64,000 bases of DNA. It comes from Acidisoma sp. PAMC 29798. GTDB taxonomy: Bacteria > Pseudomonadota > Alphaproteobacteria > Acetobacterales > Acetobacteraceae. Within the stretch, counting starts at the first letter, position 1. Each line of letters opens with the position of its first letter. Below the pieces are notes generated by a model. It was not told the origin of the DNA. It was given only the letters and a program-made list of their open reading frames with translations, and did not search any database. Of the stretch, positions 604 through 9,216 are shown piece by piece. Location: contig NZ_CP126994.1 of the NCBI RefSeq assembly GCF_030252425.1, positions 1,178,001 to 1,242,000 of the forward strand. Reading direction: 5' to 3'. The position numbers and the translations under genes are program-made.

Positions 604-1455
604 TCAGCCCTCGCGGTTTTCACGGGGGCGGCAAACCCGATCGAGAATGACGGCCAAGACGACGATGCACAGACCAGATTCGAAACCGATATCGACGCGG
701 ACGGAGTTGAGTGCCTCCACCACCGGCACACCCAAGCCGCCCGCGCCGACCAGGGCAGCGATCACCACCATCGACAGGCTGAGCATGATGCATTGCGTGA
801 GGCCGGCCATGATGGTCGGCAGCGCATGGGGCAATTCGACCTTCCACAGCAATTGCGTCTTGGACGCGCCGAAGGCTTCGCCCGCTTCGATCAGCGGCGG
901 CGGCACGGAGGCGATGCCCAGCTGCGTCAGGCGGATGGGGGCGGGCAGGGCGAAGATGATGGTCGAGATGAGGCCCGGAACGGCGCCAAGGCCGAACAGC
1001 ACCAGCGTCGGGATCAGATAGACGAAGGTGGGCAGGGTCTGCATCAGATCCAGCATCGGCCGGACCATAACGAAGAGCCACGGCCGATGGGCGCAGGCGA
1101 TGCCGATCGGCACACCGATGAGCATGGAAATCACGGTCGCGAAGATGATCAGCGACAGCGTCTCCAAGGTGGCCGTCCAATAGCCCTGGTTGAGGATGAA
1201 CAGCAGCGCCAGCAGCACGAACAGGCACAGCTTCCAGGACCTGCGAATGGCATAGGCGATGACCACGACACCGAGGATCAGAACGATCGTCGGGATCGCT
1301 TCCAGCACGAAAGTGACGCCATTGATGGCGGCGGCGATGCCGTTGGAGACGGCATCGATAAAGTCCGACCCGCTGATCGAATTGACGACGCTCGCGATCC
1401 AGTCGCCGATGGGAATTTTATGTCCGGCGACGGTATCGGCAAGGCCGTTCAGCAT
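604..1455 (-). CDS. choW: Choline ABC transporter permease
   Basis: Inner-membrane permease of the ProW/OpuAB/ChoW family, 283 residues, which is the usual size for this group. An N-terminal helical region is followed by the BPD_transp_1 domain. The EAA loop that docks the ATPase is visible near residues 190-215 (EAGEAFGASKTQLLWKVELP). Several hydrophobic helices surround it, for example the stretches beginning TIVLILGVVV and LCLFVLLALLF. The start ATG is preceded by GGAG at a good distance (ACGGAGCGCCTG then ATG). It lies between choX and choV on the same strand. The 110-bp gap to choX carries an inverted pair of REP-like units, which may set the relative expression of binding protein and membrane components. 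Confidence 0.93.
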   Translation of the reverse strand: MLNGLADTVAGHKIPIGDWIASVVNSISGSDFIDAVSNGIAAAINGVTFVLEAIPTIVLILGVVVIAYAIRRSWKLCLFVLLALLFILNQGYWTATLETLSLIIFATVISMLIGVPIGIACAHRPWLFVMVRPMLDLMQTLPTFVYLIPTLVLFGLGAVPGLISTIIFALPAPIRLTQLGIASVPPPLIEAGEAFGASKTQLLWKVELPHALPTIMAGLTQCIMLSLSMVVIAALVGAGGLGVPVVEALNSVRVDIGFESGLCIVVLAVILDRVCRPRENREG

Positions 1456-1490
1456 CAGGCGCTCCGTTATCTGCTTGGTGGCACGTTAGT

Positions 1491-1558
1491 GGCGGAAGAC
1501 GCTGCGCTTTTCCACCCTACGACGTGCGGTAGGGCGGATGAGCGCAGCGTTATCCGCC
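1491..1558. repeat. Inverted pair of 30-bp REP-like units between choX and choW
   Basis: Two copies of the window's 30-bp repeat face each other: 1491-1520 reads on the minus strand and 1529-1558 on the plus strand (starts GTAGGGCGGATGAGCGCAGC, ends CCGCC). Each unit has short complementary ends (GGCGGA/TCCGCC type), and the pair could fold into a larger cruciform. The pair lies inside a transcription unit, downstream of the choX stop and upstream of choW. Related units are at 13621-13646, 17451-17480, 43130-43200 and 61236-61265. Confidence 0.85.
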
Positions 1559-1564
1559 AAAGAT

Positions 1565-2521
1565 CTACAGCCCCAGCGACTTCTTCACGGCGGGCTCGGC
1601 CGGGGCGCTGCCGTCGGCGGTTGTCACACCGGCAAGCCACGGCGTCATGGCATCCGGATTGGCCTTCAGCCACTTCTGCGCGGCAGGCATTGGGTCGAGC
1701 TTGTCATACATGATCGAACCCATGATCTGGTTCTCCATGTCGAGCGTGAACTTAAGCTGGGTGAGCAGCTTGCCGACGTTCGGGCACATCGCCGTATAGC
1801 CGGCGGCGGTATTGGTATAGACCGTGGCGCCGCCGTAGTCGGGACCGAACACGGCGTCACCGCCCGACAGATACTTCATGTCGTATTTGCTGTTCATCGG
1901 ATGGGGTTCCCAGCCGAGGAAGACGATGCCCTGGTTATGCTTCGTCTTGCGCGAGACTTCGGCAAGCATGCCCTGCTCGCTGGACTGCACGAGCGTGAAC
2001 TTGCCGACGCCATCGGTGTTGTTCTTGATCATGTCGAGGATCAGGCGATTGCCGTCATTGCCCGGCTCGATGCCGTAAATCTTGCCGTCGAGTTGGTCGT
2101 AGAACTTCGGAATGTCCGCGAAGGACTTCAGTCCCTTGTCATAGAGATAGGTCGGAACGGCGAGGGTGTATTTTGCACCTTCCAGGTTCGGCACCACGAC
2201 ATCGACCGTCTTGGCGGTGACATAGGGCTTGATGTTGTCGGACATCGTCGGCATCCAATTTCCCAGGAAGACGTCGATCTTCTTGTCCTTCATCTCTTCG
2301 TATGTCACGGGGACGGAGAGCATCGTCGTCGTCGGCGTATAGCCGAGCGCCGTCAGAATGGCGCTGGCCGTGCCCGTCGTCGCACTGATGTCGGTCCAGC
2401 CGACATTGGAGAAGCTGACGGTTTTGCAGGAGGCGGGATCGGCCGCCGCCTGTGCCACGCCGGCGCCCATCAGGGCCGTCACACCCAGCATCGCCGCAGC
2501 CTGAAGCAGATGTTTACGCAT
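1565..2521 (-). CDS. choX: Choline-binding periplasmic protein
   Basis: Periplasmic substrate-binding protein of a choline importer (OpuAC/ChoX class), 318 residues. A signal peptide with cleavage likely after VAQA is at residues 1-25. An aromatic box for the trimethylammonium group can be placed by position: W42 (SNVGWTD), W89 (GNWMPTM), Y118 (AKYTL) and W204 (FLGWEPHP). In my memory of Sinorhizobium meliloti ChoX these are W43, W90, Y119 and W205, an offset of one throughout, which supports choline as ligand. ATG at 2521 has AGGA about nine bases upstream. It is the first gene of choX-choW-choV and is divergent from the bet operon; a shared control region with BetI-like palindromes suggests choline-dependent expression. 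Confidence 0.95.
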   Translation of the reverse strand: MRKHLLQAAAMLGVTALMGAGVAQAAADPASCKTVSFSNVGWTDISATTGTASAILTALGYTPTTTMLSVPVTYEEMKDKKIDVFLGNWMPTMSDNIKPYVTAKTVDVVVPNLEGAKYTLAVPTYLYDKGLKSFADIPKFYDQLDGKIYGIEPGNDGNRLILDMIKNNTDGVGKFTLVQSSEQGMLAEVSRKTKHNQGIVFLGWEPHPMNSKYDMKYLSGGDAVFGPDYGGATVYTNTAAGYTAMCPNVGKLLTQLKFTLDMENQIMGSIMYDKLDPMPAAQKWLKANPDAMTPWLAGVTTADGSAPAEPAVKKSLGL

Positions 2522-2581: not shown

Positions 2582-2602
2582 TTGAACATACTTTCAATGT
2601 TC
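2582..2602. promoter_or_regulatory. Candidate BetI operator near choX
   Basis: Two nested inverted repeats: TTGAA (2582-2586) with TTCAA (2593-2597), and GAACAT (2584-2589) with ATGTTC (2597-2602). TTGAA/TTCAA half-sites resemble the known BetI operator style (ATTGAAC...GTTCAAT). The site is about 60 bp upstream of the choX start. Assignment to BetI is inference from the half-site and the location. Confidence 0.45.
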
Positions 2603-2736: not shown

Positions 2737-2759
2737 TTGATTGCACGTTCAAGCAATCA
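2737..2759. promoter_or_regulatory. Candidate BetI operator upstream of the betI-betB fusion
   Basis: Perfect 7-bp arms TGATTGC (2738-2744) and GCAATCA (2753-2759) flank a core containing ACGTTCAA. The combination of TTGATTG and ACGTTCAA is close to BetI operators as I recall them (TTGATTGAACGTTCAATCAA type). It ends 35 bp before the GTG start at 2795, a natural position for autorepression of the bet operon. Confidence 0.65.
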
Positions 2760-2794: not shown

Positions 2795-4873
2795 GTGTCG
2801 CGCCGGGATTCGGAAGACGTTCGCCGTAAGCAACTCATCGATACCACCATCCTGGTGATGGCGCGCGTCGGCTTCACGGCGACGACGCTCGGGCTGATCG
2901 CCAAACAGGCCGGCGTCTCTGCGGGCCTCGTCGCGCATTATTTTGGGGATAAGGACGGTCTGCTGGAGGCGACGCTGCGGACACTCGCGGCGCGCCTCAG
3001 CCGGGCCGCCGCCGTCCGCCTGCGGGAAGCCGCCACGCCCCGCGCTCGCCTTCAGGCGGTGGTCGATGCCAATCTCGCGCCCGAGGAGATGGATTTCCAG
3101 ACCGGAACGGTCTGGCTCGCCTTCTGGGGCCAGGCCATCCATTCCGACCGCCTGAAACGCGTCCAGCGCATCTACCAGCGTCGCGTCCTCTCCAACCTGC
3201 GCCACGCCCTGCGAGACCTCGCCCCGGCGGGGGAAACCGAGCGCCTCGCCGTCATCATCGCCGCCATTATCGACGGTCTCTGGTTGCGCACGACGCTCGC
3301 GGCCTCCTGGAGTCCGGAGGATGCCGAGGTCGCGCGGCGCATCGCCGCCGGTTTCATCGACACCCAACTCGCCGCCAGTATGGAAGACGCCGTCATGCCC
3401 CAAATGCTCCCCACTGGCGCTTCGGCGCTGCCCCGTTACGCCGCCTGGATCGACGGCCGTGCTGCCCCGAATGCGGAGGCGGAGATCTTCGTCACGCGCA
3501 ATCCTGCGACCGGGGAGGCGCTAGCGGAAATCGAAATCGCGGGGGCCGCGCAAGTGGAGGCCGCCGTTACCGCCGCCAAGGTTGGCCAAAAGATCTGGCG
3601 GCGCATGACGGGCATGGAGCGTGGACGCGTGCTGCGCCGCGTCGCGGATATCCTGCGTCAGCGCAACGATGAACTAGCCGAGTTGGAGACACGCGATACC
3701 GGCAAGCCCATTCAGGAAACCAGCGTCGTGGACGTCATCTCCGGCGCCGACTGCCTGGAGTATTTCGCCGGTATCGTCGGCGGGCTGACAGGTGAGAGCG
3801 TGGATCTCGGCCCGAACGCCATGGGCTATACGCGGCGCGAACCGCTCGGCATCGTCGCCGGCATCGGTGCCTGGAACTATCCCTTGCAGATCGCTTGCTG
3901 GAAATCGGCGCCCGCACTCGCCTGCGGCAATGCGATGATCTTCAAACCCGCCGACCTCACGCCACTCACAGCGCTGAAGCTCGCGGAGATCATGACGGAA
4001 GCGGGCGTGCCGGACGGCGTCTTCAATGTTCTGCCCGGCTTCGGGGAGACGGGCAGGCTGCTCACGCGCCATCCCGGCATTGCCAAGATCTCCCTCACGG
4101 GGTCGGTCGCGACCGGCAAACGCGTAATGGCGGATGCCGCCGATACGCTCAAGCACGTCACGCTGGAACTCGGCGGCAAATCGCCGATCATCGTGTTCGA
4201 GGATGCGGATATCGAGAATGCGGTGTCGGGCGCCATGCTCGGCAATTTCTACTCGGCCGGCGAAGTGTGCTCCAACGGCACCCGCGTCTTCGTGCATCGC
4301 TCCGTGCAGGAACGCTTCACCGAACGTCTGGTGGCGCGGACCCGCGCCATGGTGGTCGGCGATCCGCTCGACCCCGCCACGCAGGTCGGCGCGTTGATTT
4401 CCGAAGCGCATATGGAAAAGGTCCTCGGCTATATCGCCAAAGGCGTGTCCGAGGGCGCGCGCCTGCTCTGCGGCGGGCAGCGTGTGGCGCGGGACGGCTT
4501 CTTCGTCTCACCCGCGATCTTCGACGGTTGCGATGACGGTCATACCATCGTGCGGGAGGAGATCTTCGGCCCGGTGATGACGGTGCTGACCTTCGATACG
4601 GAGGAGGAGGTCATCGCCCGTGCCAATGACACCGAATTCGGCCTTAGTGCTGGCATCTTCACCAAGGACTTGGCGCGGGGCCATCGGGTGATTGCCCAAC
4701 TCGAAGCCGGGACCTGCTGGATCAACACCTATAACATCACGCCAATCGAGTTGCCGTTCGGAGGCTATAAAATGTCGGGCCTCGGGCGGGAGAATAGCCG
4801 CACCGCGCTCGACCACTATACCCAAATCAAGAGCGTCTATGTGGCGCTGACCGATATCGAGGCGCCTTATTAA
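2795..4873 (+). CDS. betI-betB: Fusion protein: BetI-type TetR repressor joined in frame to betaine-aldehyde dehydrogenase BetB
   Basis: A single 692-codon frame with no stop. Residues 1-195 are a BetI-like TetR regulator: the helix-turn-helix is near 30-50 ([20 protein letters not shown]), the ligand domain follows, and it ends with the typical IIDGLWLR...FIDTQLA. After about 15-20 linker residues comes a full-length aldehyde dehydrogenase with GAWNYP (N361), the Glu of LELGGKSP (E458) and catalytic C492 in GEVCSNGTR, matching BetB, which oxidises betaine aldehyde to glycine betaine. The start is GTG at 2795 because GGGAGGAG (2781-2788) sits six bases before it; the frame also extends upstream to a TTG at 2741 that falls inside the operator palindrome. 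The stop overlaps the betA start (TAATG). In-frame ATGs at 3380 and 3395 (the latter after GGAAG) could also yield free BetB. BetI and BetB are normally separate proteins. An assembly error that removed a stop codon is the main alternative. Confidence 0.9.
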
Positions 4874-6528
4874 TGGAAGAATTCGACTATATCATCGTCG
4901 GTGCGGGTTCGGCCGGTTGCGTGCTGGCGAACCGCTTGACGGAAGACGGCACAACCACGGTTCTGCTGCTGGAATATGGCGGATCCGATAAGTCGATCTT
5001 CATACAGATGCCGGCAGCCTTGTCGATTCCCATGAACCGCAAGAAATACAACTGGTTCTATGAGACGGAGCCCGAGCCGCATCTGAACGACCGCCGCATG
5101 CATACGCCGCGCGGCAAGGTGCTCGGCGGCTCCTCCTCGATCAACGGCATGGTCTATGTGCGCGGCAATGCCATGGATTTCGAGGGCTGGGAAAGCGCGG
5201 GCGCACGCGGCTGGGGTTACCGCCATGTGCTGCCCTATTTCCGTCGCGCAGAAACGCGCGAAGAGGGCGGCGATGCCTATCGCGGTGCCGATGGGCCGCT
5301 TCATACATCCTACGGACCGATGAAGAATCCGCTGTATCGCGCCTGGATCGATGCTGCAAAGCAAGCGGGCTATCCCGAGACCACCGACATCAACGGCTTC
5401 CAGCAGGAAGGCTTTGGGCGGATGGACATGACGGTCCGTCGTGGCCAGCGCTGGAGCGCCGCCAATGCCTATCTCGCCCCGGCACGCGGCCGAAAGAATC
5501 TTGAGGTCCGAAGTTCTGCTCTGGCGACATCGGTTGTTCTGGACGGTCGTCGCGCCGTAGGCTTGCGGTATCAGCGCGGCGGCACAGCGCATGAGGTGCG
5601 GGCGCGGCGAGAGGTCATTCTGTCCGGTGGACCGATCAACTCGCCGCAATTGCTCAAGCTATCCGGCATCGGTCCCGCGGCAGAATTGCGCGAACACGGC
5701 ATCAATGTCGTCGCCGACCGTCCGGGTGTGGGGGAGAATTTGCAGGATCATCTGGAATTCTATTTCCAGATGGCGGTGTCGCAACCCATCACTTTGTTCT
5801 CGTCACAGTCCCTCTGGGCCAAGGGTCTCATCGGCATGCGCTGGATGCTGCGCCGCGATGGCCTGGGTGCGACCAATCATTTCGAGACTTGCGGCTTTAT
5901 TCGCAGCAAGGCGGGGATACAGTTTCCCGACATTCAATATCATTTTTTGCCTCTTGCCGTCTCTTACGATGGCAATAGTCTCGCGACCGAGCATGGCATG
6001 CAGGCGCATGTCGGCCCAATGCGATCCAAAAGTCGTGGCTGGGTGAAGCTGCGCTCCGCCAATCCCGCCGACAAGCCGCGCGTGTTCTTCAACTATCTCA
6101 GCCACACGGAGGACCGGGAGGAGATGCGGGCCTGCGTGCGTCTGACGCGCGAAATCTTTCAGCAACCGGCCTTCGCGCCCTATCGTGGCCGGGAAATCCA
6201 GCCGGGTGCGGATGTGGTGGATGATGAGGCGATCGACGCCTTTATCGCCGCCAAGGTCGAGAGTGCCTATCATCCGTCCTGTTCCTGCAAGATGGGCGAC
6301 CCCGCCGATCCCATGGCCGTCGTCGATCCCGAGACGCGGGTAATCGGCATGGAGGCTTTGCGCGTGGTCGATAGTTCCATCATGCCGAGCCTGACCACCG
6401 GCAATCTCAATGCGCCGACCATCATGATTGGTGAGAAGGCGGCGGATCACATTATGGGCAGGCCGATGCTGGCGGCGTCCAATGCGCCGTATTTCGTCGC
6501 GCCGCACTGGCAGACCGCGCAAAGGTGA
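4873..6528 (+). CDS. betA: Choline dehydrogenase
   Basis: FAD-dependent GMC oxidoreductase, 551 residues, the usual BetA length; oxidises choline to betaine aldehyde at the membrane. The dinucleotide-binding motif VGAGSAG is at residues 9-15. GMC signature 1 (GGSSSINGMVYVRGN) is at 85-99, and signature 2 (SGGPINSPQLLKLSG) lies near 252. The catalytic His is in YHPSCSCKMG near 465, followed by the C-terminal flavin contact region (VVDSSIMPSLTTGNLNAPT). Its ATG overlaps the stop of the betI-betB fusion (TAATG), so the two are probably translationally coupled. Together they make glycine betaine, an osmoprotectant, from choline imported by ChoXWV. Confidence 0.96.
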   Translation: MEEFDYIIVGAGSAGCVLANRLTEDGTTTVLLLEYGGSDKSIFIQMPAALSIPMNRKKYNWFYETEPEPHLNDRRMHTPRGKVLGGSSSINGMVYVRGNAMDFEGWESAGARGWGYRHVLPYFRRAETREEGGDAYRGADGPLHTSYGPMKNPLYRAWIDAAKQAGYPETTDINGFQQEGFGRMDMTVRRGQRWSAANAYLAPARGRKNLEVRSSALATSVVLDGRRAVGLRYQRGGTAHEVRARREVILSGGPINSPQLLKLSGIGPAAELREHGINVVADRPGVGENLQDHLEFYFQMAVSQPITLFSSQSLWAKGLIGMRWMLRRDGLGATNHFETCGFIRSKAGIQFPDIQYHFLPLAVSYDGNSLATEHGMQAHVGPMRSKSRGWVKLRSANPADKPRVFFNYLSHTEDREEMRACVRLTREIFQQPAFAPYRGREIQPGADVVDDEAIDAFIAAKVESAYHPSCSCKMGDPADPMAVVDPETRVIGMEALRVVDSSIMPSLTTGNLNAPTIMIGEKAADHIMGRPMLAASNAPYFVAPHWQTAQR

Positions 6529-6542
6529 TTGGTGGAGTGCTC

Positions 6543-6610
6543 GTCATCCGCGCACTTGATCCGCTTATCCATGGGCGCCCATGGATCCCCCGATCAAGTC
6601 GGGAGATGAC
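6543..6610. repeat. Nested palindromic hairpin (GTCATC family) after betA
   Basis: Outer arms GTCATC (6543-6548) and GATGAC (6605-6610), middle arms ACTTGATC (6554-6561) and GATCAAGT (6592-6599), and an inner perfect 18-bp palindrome centred on TGGGCGCCCA (6568-6585). It lies just beyond the betA stop and could end or stabilise the bet transcript. Related hairpins are at 9258-9362, 34955-34991 and 45800-45828. Confidence 0.8.
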
Positions 6611-6643
6611 GGTAATTCCCTAACCGCCGCTTGGAGGTATCCC

Positions 6644-7033
6644 ATGATCATTCTTGCTTATATCGCCGGTCTCATCGTCTTCGTGGCACTCGATGCCGTT
6701 TGGCTCACCCTCACTGGCCCAAGCTATCGGGCGGTGCTGGGGGATATGCTGGCGCCCAGCATCCGGATCGTTCCGGCAGTGCTGTTCTACCTCGTCGATA
6801 TGCTCGGCATCATGATCTTTGTGGCGCGGCCGGGCGTGCCGAACGGCATCGTCTGGGTGCTGACCTACGGCGCGCTCTTCGGTCTTTTCACTTACGCGAC
6901 CTATGATTTGACAAACTTTGCTATTCTCAAGAACTGGAACATCGGCATTACCGTCGCCGATATTCTCTGGGGATCGGTGCTCTCCTCTGCTGTCTCGACA
7001 GCCGCCTGGGCCGTGCTGCGCCGGACGCTTTAA
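6644..7033 (+). CDS. DUF2177 family membrane protein
   Basis: Small integral membrane protein of 129 residues with about four hydrophobic helices: LAYIAGLIVFVALDAVWL at the N-terminus, VPAVLFYLVDMLGIMIFV, WVLTYGALFGLFTYATY and a C-terminal helix around SSAVSTAAWAVL. The motif FGLFTYATYDLTNFA and the LDAVWL start are typical of DUF2177 as I know it. The ATG at 6644 is chosen because TTGGAGG lies six bases upstream; the frame continues upstream through the hairpin repeat, which is unlikely to be coding. The next gene begins directly after its stop codon, so it is cotranscribed with the photolyase. Molecular function unknown; DUF2177 genes are often found beside photolyase genes in proteobacteria. 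Confidence 0.85.
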   Translation: MIILAYIAGLIVFVALDAVWLTLTGPSYRAVLGDMLAPSIRIVPAVLFYLVDMLGIMIFVARPGVPNGIVWVLTYGALFGLFTYATYDLTNFAILKNWNIGITVADILWGSVLSSAVSTAAWAVLRRTL

Positions 7034-8584
7034 GTGCCCATGACGCGACAGCCCGTGCTGCGGTTTATTCTGGGCGATCAGCTGTCCCGAGCGATTGCGT
7101 CCCTGCGTGACGCGGATGCGGCACGTGACGTCGTGTTGATGGCGGAAGTTGCGGACGAGACGGTCTATGTGCCGCATCACCCCAAGAAGATCGCCTTCCT
7201 CTTCTCGGCCATGCGCCATTTCGCGGCGGAACTGCGCGCCGAGGGCTTCACCGTCGATTACGTGACCTTGGACGACCCCGCCAATACCGGCGCCTTCGGC
7301 ACGGAACTCGCGCGCGCGGTGTCGCGTCACAGAGCTGCTTCTGTCGTGGTCACGCATCCCGGCGAATGGCGCGTCCTGGATGCGATGCAAATGTGGGAAG
7401 AGACTGCCGGCGTTCCGGTGGAGATCCGCGAGGATGACCGGTTCCTGTGTCCGCTGCCGCGCTTTCGCCAATGGGCGGAGGGCAAACGCCAACCGCGCAT
7501 GGAATTCTTCTATCGGGAGATGCGGCGCGCAACAGGCTTGCTGATGGATGCCGATGGTGAGCCTGCCGGTGGGCGCTGGAACTTCGACGCGGATAACCGG
7601 AAGCCGGTGCCGAAGCAGCTTGATATGCCACCTGCTTTTTTCGTGACCCCAGATGCGATGACTCAGCAGGTTCTGGCCCTGGTCGGCGCCCGCTTCCCCG
7701 ACAATTTCGGCACGCTGGACGGTTTCGATTATGCGGTGACGGCGTCTGATGCACGGCGCGCTCTGGCGCATTTCGTCACCCATGCGCTGGCTTCCTTCGG
7801 CGACTACCAAGACGCGATGCGGCAGGGCGAGGACCGGCTGTTTCACTCCGTTTTGTCGCCCTACCTCAATGCCGGCCTGCTCGACCCCCGCACTGTTTGC
7901 GATGCGGCGGAAACGGCTTGGCGAGACGGGCTGGCACCGCTCAACGCCGTGGAGGGATTCATTCGCCAGATCCTGGGCTGGCGCGAATATATCCGTGGTC
8001 TCTATTGGCTGAAGATGCCCGATTACGCCCAAACCAATCGGCTCGGCGCCGATCGCGCTTTGCCGGGACTCTATTGGGGCGCGCCGACCGACATGAACTG
8101 CCTTAGCCAATGCGTCGATCAGACACGACGGCTGGCGCATGCGCATCACATTCAGCGCCTGATGGTGACGGGAAACTTTGCTCTGCTGATCGGTGCCCTC
8201 CCGTCTGAGGTAGAGGCCTGGTATCTCGCCGTCTATATCGACGCCTATGAATGGGTGGAATTGCCCAATGTCCACGGCATGATTCTTTATGCCGACGGCG
8301 GTTATCTGGCATCGAAACCCTATGCCGCGAGCGGCAAATATATAGACCGCATGTCGGACTACTGCCGTCATTGCCGCTACGACGTGAAGCAGAGTTTGGG
8401 GCCGGATGCCTGTCCCTTCAACTTTCTCTATTGGAACTTCATCATCGAGAAGGCACCTGAATTGCGCGGCAATCATAGGATGGCGATGATATATGCATCG
8501 CTCGGCCGGATGGAGGGCGCAAAGCAGGCGGCCATCCAAACGCAGGCCAGTGATTTCCTCGCTGCGCTGACAACAGAGTATTGA
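7034..8584 (+). CDS. phrB: FeS-type bacterial (6-4) photolyase / cryptochrome-like protein
   Basis: Deoxyribodipyrimidine photolyase-related protein (PF04244) of the FeS-BCP class, about 516 residues; uses light to repair UV (6-4) photoproducts. Numbered from the GTG at 7034, the four cluster cysteines are C356, C444, C447 and C460 (YCRHCRYD...DACPFN). These match C350, C438, C441 and C454 of Agrobacterium PhrB with a constant offset of six. The active-site His of AHHIQRLMVTGNF (H371/H372) also aligns. The start may be GTG at 7034, directly after the DUF2177 stop, or ATG at 7040; no strong ribosome site decides. It overlaps nothing and is followed closely by the ParB-like gene. A signalling (cryptochrome) role instead of repair cannot be excluded. 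Confidence 0.93.
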   Translation: MPMTRQPVLRFILGDQLSRAIASLRDADAARDVVLMAEVADETVYVPHHPKKIAFLFSAMRHFAAELRAEGFTVDYVTLDDPANTGAFGTELARAVSRHRAASVVVTHPGEWRVLDAMQMWEETAGVPVEIREDDRFLCPLPRFRQWAEGKRQPRMEFFYREMRRATGLLMDADGEPAGGRWNFDADNRKPVPKQLDMPPAFFVTPDAMTQQVLALVGARFPDNFGTLDGFDYAVTASDARRALAHFVTHALASFGDYQDAMRQGEDRLFHSVLSPYLNAGLLDPRTVCDAAETAWRDGLAPLNAVEGFIRQILGWREYIRGLYWLKMPDYAQTNRLGADRALPGLYWGAPTDMNCLSQCVDQTRRLAHAHHIQRLMVTGNFALLIGALPSEVEAWYLAVYIDAYEWVELPNVHGMILYADGGYLASKPYAASGKYIDRMSDYCRHCRYDVKQSLGPDACPFNFLYWNFIIEKAPELRGNHRMAMIYASLGRMEGAKQAAIQTQASDFLAALTTEY

Positions 8585-8598
8585 GAGGCAGACCTAAG

Positions 8599-9216
8599 AT
8601 GCCCGATCTCGTTCCGATTGGCGTTCCCGTCACCGACCTGCGCCCGACGCAGATGACGCTGGGTTTTCGCGAAGTGGAGATCAAGCGGCGCGCCTGGCGG
8701 GATGCCGACATCGCGGGCCGCACCAAGATGCTCAGAAGCCATGCCGTGCCGGCCGTCATCGGACCCAAGGGCCGGCATTACATCGTCGATCACCACCACT
8801 TCGCGAAGGCGCTTCTGGACGAGAAGGCGCCCCTCGTCGCGGTCTATGTGATTGCCGACCTCGAAGACGTCGACAAGGACGAGTTCTGGAGCTTTCTGGA
8901 TAACAACAGTTGGTGTCATGCTTATGACGCGTCGGGCAAGCGCCGCGACCTGTCCGAGATCCCCAAAAGCCTCACGGACCTCACCGACGATCCGTTTCGC
9001 AGTCTCGTTGGCGAACTGATCCGCGCCGGCGGTCTCGCCAAAAATGCACGTCCCTTCTTCGAGTTCACCTGGGCGGATTTCCTACGCCGCCGCATCAAGC
9101 TGGAGCTTGTCGAGAAGGATTTTGGCACCGCTTTGGTGAAGGCGCTCGACCTTGCCAAAAGCATGGAGGCCAAGAACCTGCCCGGCTGGTCCGGCGCCGA
9201 GCCCTCTGCGGATTAA
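8599..9216 (+). CDS. ParB-like (ParBc_2) domain protein
   Basis: Protein of 205 residues from the ATG at 8599 (GAGAGG ten bases upstream). It resembles the ParB-like nuclease 2 family (PF08857): an N-terminal segment with LRPTQMTLGFREVEIKR, then GPKGRHYIVDHHHFAKALLD, which corresponds to the GxHRxxA-type box of the ParB/Srx fold, then an all-alpha tail. It lacks a ParB DNA-binding helix-turn-helix, so a chromosome-partition role is unlikely. It begins 14 bp after the photolyase stop on the same strand, so it is probably cotranscribed with DUF2177 and phrB. Function unknown; family assignment is from motif memory. Confidence 0.75.
   Translation: MPDLVPIGVPVTDLRPTQMTLGFREVEIKRRAWRDADIAGRTKMLRSHAVPAVIGPKGRHYIVDHHHFAKALLDEKAPLVAVYVIADLEDVDKDEFWSFLDNNSWCHAYDASGKRRDLSEIPKSLTDLTDDPFRSLVGELIRAGGLAKNARPFFEFTWADFLRRRIKLELVEKDFGTALVKALDLAKSMEAKNLPGWSGAEPSAD

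Follow-up and report, generated by a model that had tools for sequence, protein, structure and literature searches.

In the soil bacterium Acidisoma sp. PAMC 29798, one uninterrupted frame encodes a complete BetI followed by a complete BetB. Judged from sequence and its comparison across relatives, this one polypeptide is probably both the choline-responsive repressor BetI and the same-pathway enzyme BetB, and it would repress its own operon by the sequence of steps outlined in the next paragraph. The fusion is more general than the first-pass annotation of this DNA had noted, and a repressor-enzyme of its own operon is the best-supported reading, one that resembles PutA in plan and not in parts.

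When choline is absent, the BetI half would occupy boxes between choX and the fusion gene, repressing transcription in both directions, including its own synthesis. Choline bound by the BetI half would release the DNA, after which the fusion would act as betaine-aldehyde dehydrogenase (BADH) beside BetA. Because BADHs are oligomers, the enzyme half probably joins two BetI dimers, and one protein would then hold two boxes, often 137-189 bp apart. In several lineages the catalytic residues of the aldehyde dehydrogenase (ALDH) have been lost and the frame and BetI half kept, and what remains is a repressor whose ALDH-like body is presumably non-catalytic. Ligand control and DNA looping are inferred, as is any sensing through the ALDH half.

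The fusion gene and its neighbourhood

The window, meaning the whole 64-kb stretch of DNA that was analysed (contig NZ_CP126994.1), carries the following features.

604..1455, reverse strand: choW-type choline permease (TIGR03416)
1565..2521, reverse strand: choX-type choline-binding protein (TIGR03414), divergent from the fusion
2582..2597, no strand: putative BetI box 2, TTGAACATACTTTCAA, a sequence match with 2 mismatches in the choX-proximal part of the intergenic region
2737..2752, no strand: putative BetI box 1, TTGATTGCACGTTCAA, a sequence match with 1 mismatch that begins 58 bp before the start codon
2795..4873, forward strand: betI-betB fusion gene, 692 aa in a single open frame
2834..2971, forward strand: TetR_N helix-turn-helix, residues 14-59, above the Pfam cut-off
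3038..3370, forward strand: TetR_C_6, BetI-type ligand and dimerisation domain, residues 82-192, above the Pfam cut-off
3371..3481, forward strand: linker between BetI and BetB, with low pLDDT at residues 199-210
3380, 3395, and 3404, forward strand: in-frame linker ATGs, candidate internal starts for free BetB, of which 3395 has a weak Shine-Dalgarno
3482..4837, forward strand: Aldedh (BetB) domain, residues 230-681, above the Pfam cut-off
4166-4168, forward strand: codon of catalytic Glu458 in the BetB domain
4268-4270, forward strand: codon of catalytic Cys492 in the BetB domain
4873..6528, forward strand: betA, choline dehydrogenase (TIGR01810, 818 bits against a cut-off of 732.1)
6581-7033: DUF2177 membrane protein, first of the row downstream of betA
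7034-8584: photolyase-related protein (Pfam DPRP), second of the row
8581-9216: ParB-like nuclease domain protein (ParBc_2), third of the row

The proposal that a complete BetI runs into a complete BetB in one frame holds for this gene, as all 692 codons are open, both equivalog cut-offs are passed, and the catalytic residues are present. Its BetI half scores 202.6 bits against TIGR03384 (the NCBIfam equivalog for BetI, cut-off 201.3), and its ALDH half scores 686.3 bits against TIGR01804 (the equivalog for betaine-aldehyde dehydrogenase, cut-off 668.6) and 789.8 against PRK13252 (cut-off 593). Catalytic residues N361, K384, E458, C492, and E589 (the Glu of EEIFGP) are all in place. With 692 residues, the protein is not an ordinary BetI, which is about 190-200 aa long when free-standing. 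Among the N-terminal BetI parts of other fusions, that of locus L100 (212.9) exceeds the TIGR03384 cut-off, which L160 (183.5), L166 (185.6), and L212 (177.3) do not reach. Each of the five N-terminal parts scanned exceeds PRK00767 (cut-off 118).

The start codon is GTG, directly preceded by the Shine-Dalgarno GGGAGGAG, a strong match with a duplex score of -10.3. A longer alternative start at TTG 2741 would fall inside the putative operator and is not preferred. The AlphaFold2 monomer model of the fusion has a mean pLDDT of 80.1 and a pTM of 0.64, with an uncertain C-terminus; in structure, the enzyme half of the model resembles solved BADHs (6wsa: TM 0.86 by target, 56% identity). Downstream, the start codon of betA and the stop codon of the fusion share one base. 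The genome has a single TetR_C_6 protein, which is the fusion's own, and its next-best ALDH is 41% identical, so that no close second BetB is present.

A sequencing or assembly error that joined two genes is extremely improbable. Single frame breaks do occur in two loci from metagenome-assembled genomes (MAGs), L097 and L163, but the same join is found in independent assemblies from many genera, including isolates and annotated plasmids. All four of the other genomes of the same genus that were searched carry the fusion at 79-83% identity and with no internal stop, so the lack of the architecture in close relatives, which would have spoken against the fusion, is not what is seen. Thus, the relatives rule out an error as the origin of the fusion.

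Distribution among relatives

A search for the architecture in other genomes recovers the same BetI-to-ALDH join across several families. BetI and BetB had initially been described as separate proteins in every system, which is wrong only because the fusion itself spans several families. The family search covered 397 genomes, with a BetI-like match set at E 1e-25. Matches were obtained in 34 genomes, of which 25 are fused, four are separate, one lies at a contig edge (G013), and four are without a read locus. Fused frames in the family are 684-697 aa long, counted from the start of the match. In the class search, 36 of 385 genomes match BetI, and the matches that came with a locus were read. 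The window genome, L068, and L069 are fused, L071 is fused and shortened, and the other 25 new loci are separate. Fused loci are therefore in the minority across the class.

The species-genome scan favours fused loci and provides no estimate of prevalence, because its query was built from fused BetIs. Of 472 confirmed relatives the best 80 were kept, and in 68 of these BetI runs into ALDH, 11 are separate, and one is undecided at a contig end. Eight of the 68 have degenerate ALDH halves, and several are cut by contig ends. These best 80 place fused loci in several alphaproteobacterial orders and in gammaproteobacterial MAGs. By the names used in the BetI tree, the families are Acetobacteraceae, Xanthobacteraceae, Kaistiaceae, Pleomorphomonadaceae, Afifellaceae, Aurantimonadaceae, Caulobacteraceae, Sphingomonadaceae, and Steroidobacteraceae. 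Duplicate loci (L042/L096, L044/L150, L051/L166, and L055/L167) were counted once.

Existing records name the architecture inconsistently. The 692-aa fusion of Komagataeibacter saccharivorans is recorded as betaine-aldehyde dehydrogenase, and the 677-aa fusion of Methylobacterium nodulans as transcriptional regulator BetI. This split naming as betB or betI may be why the fusion went unremarked. No description of a BetI-BetB fusion was found in the titles and abstract openings of the open-licence papers listed, a scope that mostly excludes subscription papers. In the main text of a study of BetI in Ruegeria pomeroyi (PMC12442346), the word "fused" occurs zero times and "fusion" twice, and the place displayed concerns a PCR method. 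Acidiphilium, a member of the same family (Acetobacteraceae), is tabulated in another report as proXWVbetBA without betI (PMC7824335), and may be a candidate for the same overlooked fusion.

Both halves are kept

There are 87 distinct fused frames of at least 450 aa, of which 78 are not degenerate. The five catalytic residues are all retained in 76 of 76 non-degenerate fusions with the five columns filled; L112 and L137 are cut short and thus stand outside this set. In seven pairs of active fusions, dN/dS values (Nei-Gojobori) are 0.08-0.25 for the BetI part and 0.12-0.30 for the ALDH part. Furthermore, 27 genomes with a catalytic fusion contain no other match at E 1e-118 with more than 45% identity to the window BetB. 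The suggestion of a conserved repressor-enzyme fusion is borne out to the extent that both halves are under purifying selection, BetI boxes lie in front, and neither a second BetI nor a close BetB is present.

Origin of the fusion

The BetI-domain tree includes 113 domains, 25 of 138 rows having been left out as near copies or truncated loci. All 63 fused and nine degenerate rows fall in one clade of 75 rows with support 100/92. The other members of this clade are the contig-edge locus L066 and the separate loci L162 and L163. L162 is nested among the degenerate rows, and its locus is without a BetB match. In L163, a MAG locus with only one box upstream, betI and betB lie in different frames (6001-8002) with a possible TTG start for betB; it is either a re-split gene or a MAG frame error within the fused clade. 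The sisters of the clade are the separate loci L142 (Labrys) and L158.

In four less closely related separate loci (L070, L072, L074, and L076), betI is still followed in frame by betB, and a stop codon parts the two. This arrangement suggests that the fusion arose by loss of the stop between betI and betB. An N-terminal motif, P[KR][VLIT][GE], occurs in 29 of 40 separate BetIs, but none of the 84 fused or nine degenerate ones has it. Two more separate BetIs, L171 and L172, have PKRG in its place, and the sisters L142 and L158 likewise are without the motif.

The tree of ALDH halves was made by a quick method with 30 fused rows picked by hand. It is in overall agreement with the BetI tree and places 29 of these 30 in a group of 33 rows (SH-aLRT 98). 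Fused L157 lies outside this main group, and the separate loci L142, L158, and L163 and the contig-edge locus L014 lie inside it. Because of these exceptions, the case for a single origin rests mainly on the BetI tree. Alongside a single origin, the gene may have split again later in a few cases, or a second fusion may have occurred.

BetI boxes upstream of fused genes

Two palindromes that had been named as operator candidates are real: the one at 2737-2752 has 1 mismatch to the box consensus and the one at 2582-2597 has 2 mismatches, with a spacing of 155 bp. Box 1 is the only site in the genome that matches TTGANYGNNCRTTCAA with zero mismatches, a pattern that had been loosened to fit box 1. 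Four other loci of the same genus (L039-L042) have a box with 2 mismatches at a position similar to that of box 2. The window contains three box sites, compared with a mean of 0.53 in shuffled sequences, and 4 of 100 shuffles reach three. It is the relatives, and not the window alone, that support the boxes. A promoter scan of 2500-2830 yielded no sigma-70-like promoter.

Box counts in the relatives were obtained with the 16-bp pattern TTGAAYGNNCRTTCAA, a consensus read off fused loci, allowing up to 3 mismatches within 400 bp upstream. L130, L133, L134, and L141, which have contig ends or N runs, were taken as fused (L130 stops short of the linker), and fused L124 and L152, with less than 415 bp upstream, were left out. 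At least one box is found at 82 of 82 fused loci, eight of nine degenerate loci (L159 being the exception), and 36 of 40 separate loci, compared with 0.02-0.03 per locus in shuffles (0.025 for the fused). At least two boxes occur at 71 of 82 fused and eight of nine degenerate loci, and at 6 of 40 separate loci. The difference persists when loci with a divergent choX (28 of 32 fused versus 2 of 17 separate) and those without one (43 of 50 versus 4 of 23) are considered individually (Fisher P <1e-6 in each case, with shared ancestry ignored). Two strong boxes are likewise found at the separate sister locus L158, and the two-box association of fused loci may be one event, given their common ancestry.

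Spacings of 137-189 bp are common in other loci, and some are 41-123 or 205-206 bp. Helical phasing was considered as a sign of looping and rejected: among 38 lineage medians, R is 0.26 at 10.5 bp (P 0.07), the best R for 10-11 bp has P 0.06, and there is no peak at 10.5. For this comparison, the grouping into lineages was done by hand, a single spacing stood for each locus with several, and a floor of 100 bp was applied; loci with many spacings or with short ones only (L043, L056-L061, L131, L140, L144, L148, and L157) were not included.

The excess of two boxes upstream of fused genes fits two DNA-binding heads acting together. A tetramer carrying four such heads, as first proposed, is a candidate arrangement. 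There is also an alternative explanation, to which we give somewhat less than an even chance, in which the fusion is a mere tether. The halves would keep their old jobs with no cross-talk or looping, and the gain would be that their ratio is fixed at 1:1 and that a single start site serves both. Both halves do keep normal family scores, selection on them is similar in active fusions, the linker varies freely in length and sequence among fusions, and box spacing is without significant helical phasing. However, a tether alone leaves unexplained why two boxes are so frequent with fusions, and why several lineages retain an attached, open, non-catalytic ALDH half.

Degenerate fusions

Nine fusions (L071, L100, L105, L151, L153, L154, L156, L159, and L160) have lost the catalytic Cys and still have an open frame. 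As aligned, Glu589 is lost in all nine and Asn361 in every one except L159. Lys384 and Glu458 are each lost in eight, with L100 retaining both. The degenerate fusions besides L071, together with L212, are open over 600-677 aa. L071 (about 640-2133, reverse strand) is 498 aa in total with a much shortened ALDH half, and adjoins a betA that is 79% identical to the window betA; at E 1e-118, no ALDH in the genome of L071 is more than 44% identical to the window BetB. On the BetI tree, the degenerate label needs four changes, of which at least three are forced by starred branches and one may be the loss in L162.

The largest degenerate group comprises Methylobacterium, Methylorubrum, Methylopila, Chelatococcus, Hyphomicrobium, and L151, and its BetI halves are strikingly conserved. 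At L153, L154, L156, and L160, choX and choW stand opposite the fusion, and separate betB and betA genes come after them. The separate betB genes of these four loci group with the BetBs of Burkholderiaceae and Rhodanobacter (support 100), and thus were probably acquired from elsewhere. A BetI with an ALDH lacking the catalytic Cys in L212 (6471-8504) likewise faces choX/choW and then separate betB and betA, and the annotation of Methylobacterium nodulans at that place lists choX, choW, choV, betB, and betA. Such an origin does not extend to every degenerate locus: the Hyphomicrobium genome (L159) has a BetB elsewhere (L180) that groups with alphaproteobacterial BetBs. For the genomes of Kaistia (L100 and L105) and L151, no other ALDH above 42% appears among the matches listed.

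There is roughly an even chance that the degenerate fusions are simply decaying, the ALDH half being useless once another BetB activity is present. Across 17 degenerate pairs, dN/dS is 0.22-0.70 for the ALDH half and 0.05-0.32 for the BetI half, so the former changes faster. The degenerate ALDH halves also have large internal deletions, L162 of the same clade is already without a BetB match in its locus, and the operon BetB of four degenerate loci is of the Burkholderia/Rhodanobacter type. Yet the ALDH values remain below 1, and the frame is open in all six matching genomes of a Methylobacterium search (six of 79 match, with the query genome included and the other five at 50-70% identity). Pfam Aldedh is still found in seven of seven degenerate loci scanned and in M. 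nodulans. The predicted L160 model still resembles BADH structures (Foldseek probability 1.00; 6wsa: TM 0.71 by target, 29% identity), though 11 of the 19 rows in its input alignment are active fusions, which may pull the model toward the BADH fold.

The Trp of AWNYP, present in six of six aligned rows and absent in Kaistia L100 and L105, was considered as a sign of a kept choline-type pocket and rejected in this role; it is a lead only. The rest of the active site in the degenerate halves is largely deleted or changed.

A more elaborate version of the repressor-enzyme reading is unlikely on present evidence. It would have the ALDH oligomer tie two BetI dimers together, and a single molecule would thereby span two boxes and close off the intergenic region between choX and bet, with occupancy of the ALDH half tuning this state. 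Once the operons of Methylobacterium, Methylorubrum, Methylopila, and Chelatococcus had gained a foreign BetB, the ALDH half would have ceased catalysis and become purely regulatory and possibly ligand-sensing. In that case, the fusion of BetI to BetB would have given rise to a new kind of regulator.

Possible internal starts

The ATG codons in the linker are perhaps the remains of an old betB start. They raise the prospect of a dual product, with the full fusion as repressor, free BetB from an internal linker start, and mixed oligomers of the two, which we regard as doubtful. An in-frame ATG between frame residue 180 and the NPATG motif is present in 31 of 79 active fusions, and 27 of these lie 20-40 codons before NPATG. 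In all five Acidisoma loci such an ATG lies 31-37 codons ahead of NPATG; their best duplex scores run from -3.3 (window) to -5.7, and L043 has -12.1. The Acidisoma scores are not above chance, because random 15-mers from coding sequence of the window average -2.7 and 5% reach -8.8; the gene's own GTG is the codon that scores -10.3. The other 48 of the 79 active fusions are without such an ATG, and thus a dual product is not general and an internal start is ruled out as a general explanation. Several of these 48 are, by eye, also without the first BetB strand. In the window itself, some free BetB could be made from an internal ATG.

Comparison with known regulatory systems

The separate BetI (TIGR03384) and BetB (TIGR01804) proteins of Escherichia coli, Sinorhizobium, and Ruegeria belong to the same two families, have the same operon neighbours, and have an upstream BetI box. 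The fusion differs in being one polypeptide, in usually having two boxes, and in its lack of the N-terminal P[KR][VLIT][GE] motif. PutA is a proline-catabolic flavoenzyme that represses its own operon, and the fusion had been likened to it. The analogy is apt as a statement of how the protein would work, in that each is a catabolic enzyme with an ALDH-fold domain and its own DNA-binding domain in the same chain, within its own regulon or operon. The parts are unrelated. The DNA-binding fold of PutA is ribbon-helix-helix, whereas the fusion has a TetR fold and no proline dehydrogenase domain. Because Pfam finds only TetR_N, TetR_C_6, and Aldedh on the window fusion, the protein is not a PutA and is only PutA-like. 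It is another case, beside PutA, of a catabolic enzyme that seemingly represses its own operon, built from unrelated parts and present in several alphaproteobacterial families.

Trigger enzymes and pseudoenzyme regulators reuse an enzyme scaffold in regulation, and some members are without catalytic residues. In the present case, by comparison, the regulator appears to have been fused first and the enzyme half to have decayed later, with the intermediates alive in related lineages. Since the separate, fused, catalytically dead, and lost stages all exist in living relatives, the change from enzyme to regulator is directly testable. There is also a practical consequence, since the same architecture is recorded as betB in Komagataeibacter and as betI in Methylobacterium.

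The two-BetI system of Ruegeria pomeroyi is similar in that BetI controls divergent choline genes through two palindromes, and differs in having two separate BetI proteins (PMC12442346). The boxes of fused loci resemble the BetI palindrome published there, and the unfused BetI2 of Ruegeria likewise uses two palindromes (PMC12442346).

Elsewhere in the Acidisoma genome, G000:C1:839265-841460 is one 850-aa frame with two ALDH-like matches, and is another unusual ALDH of the same organism.
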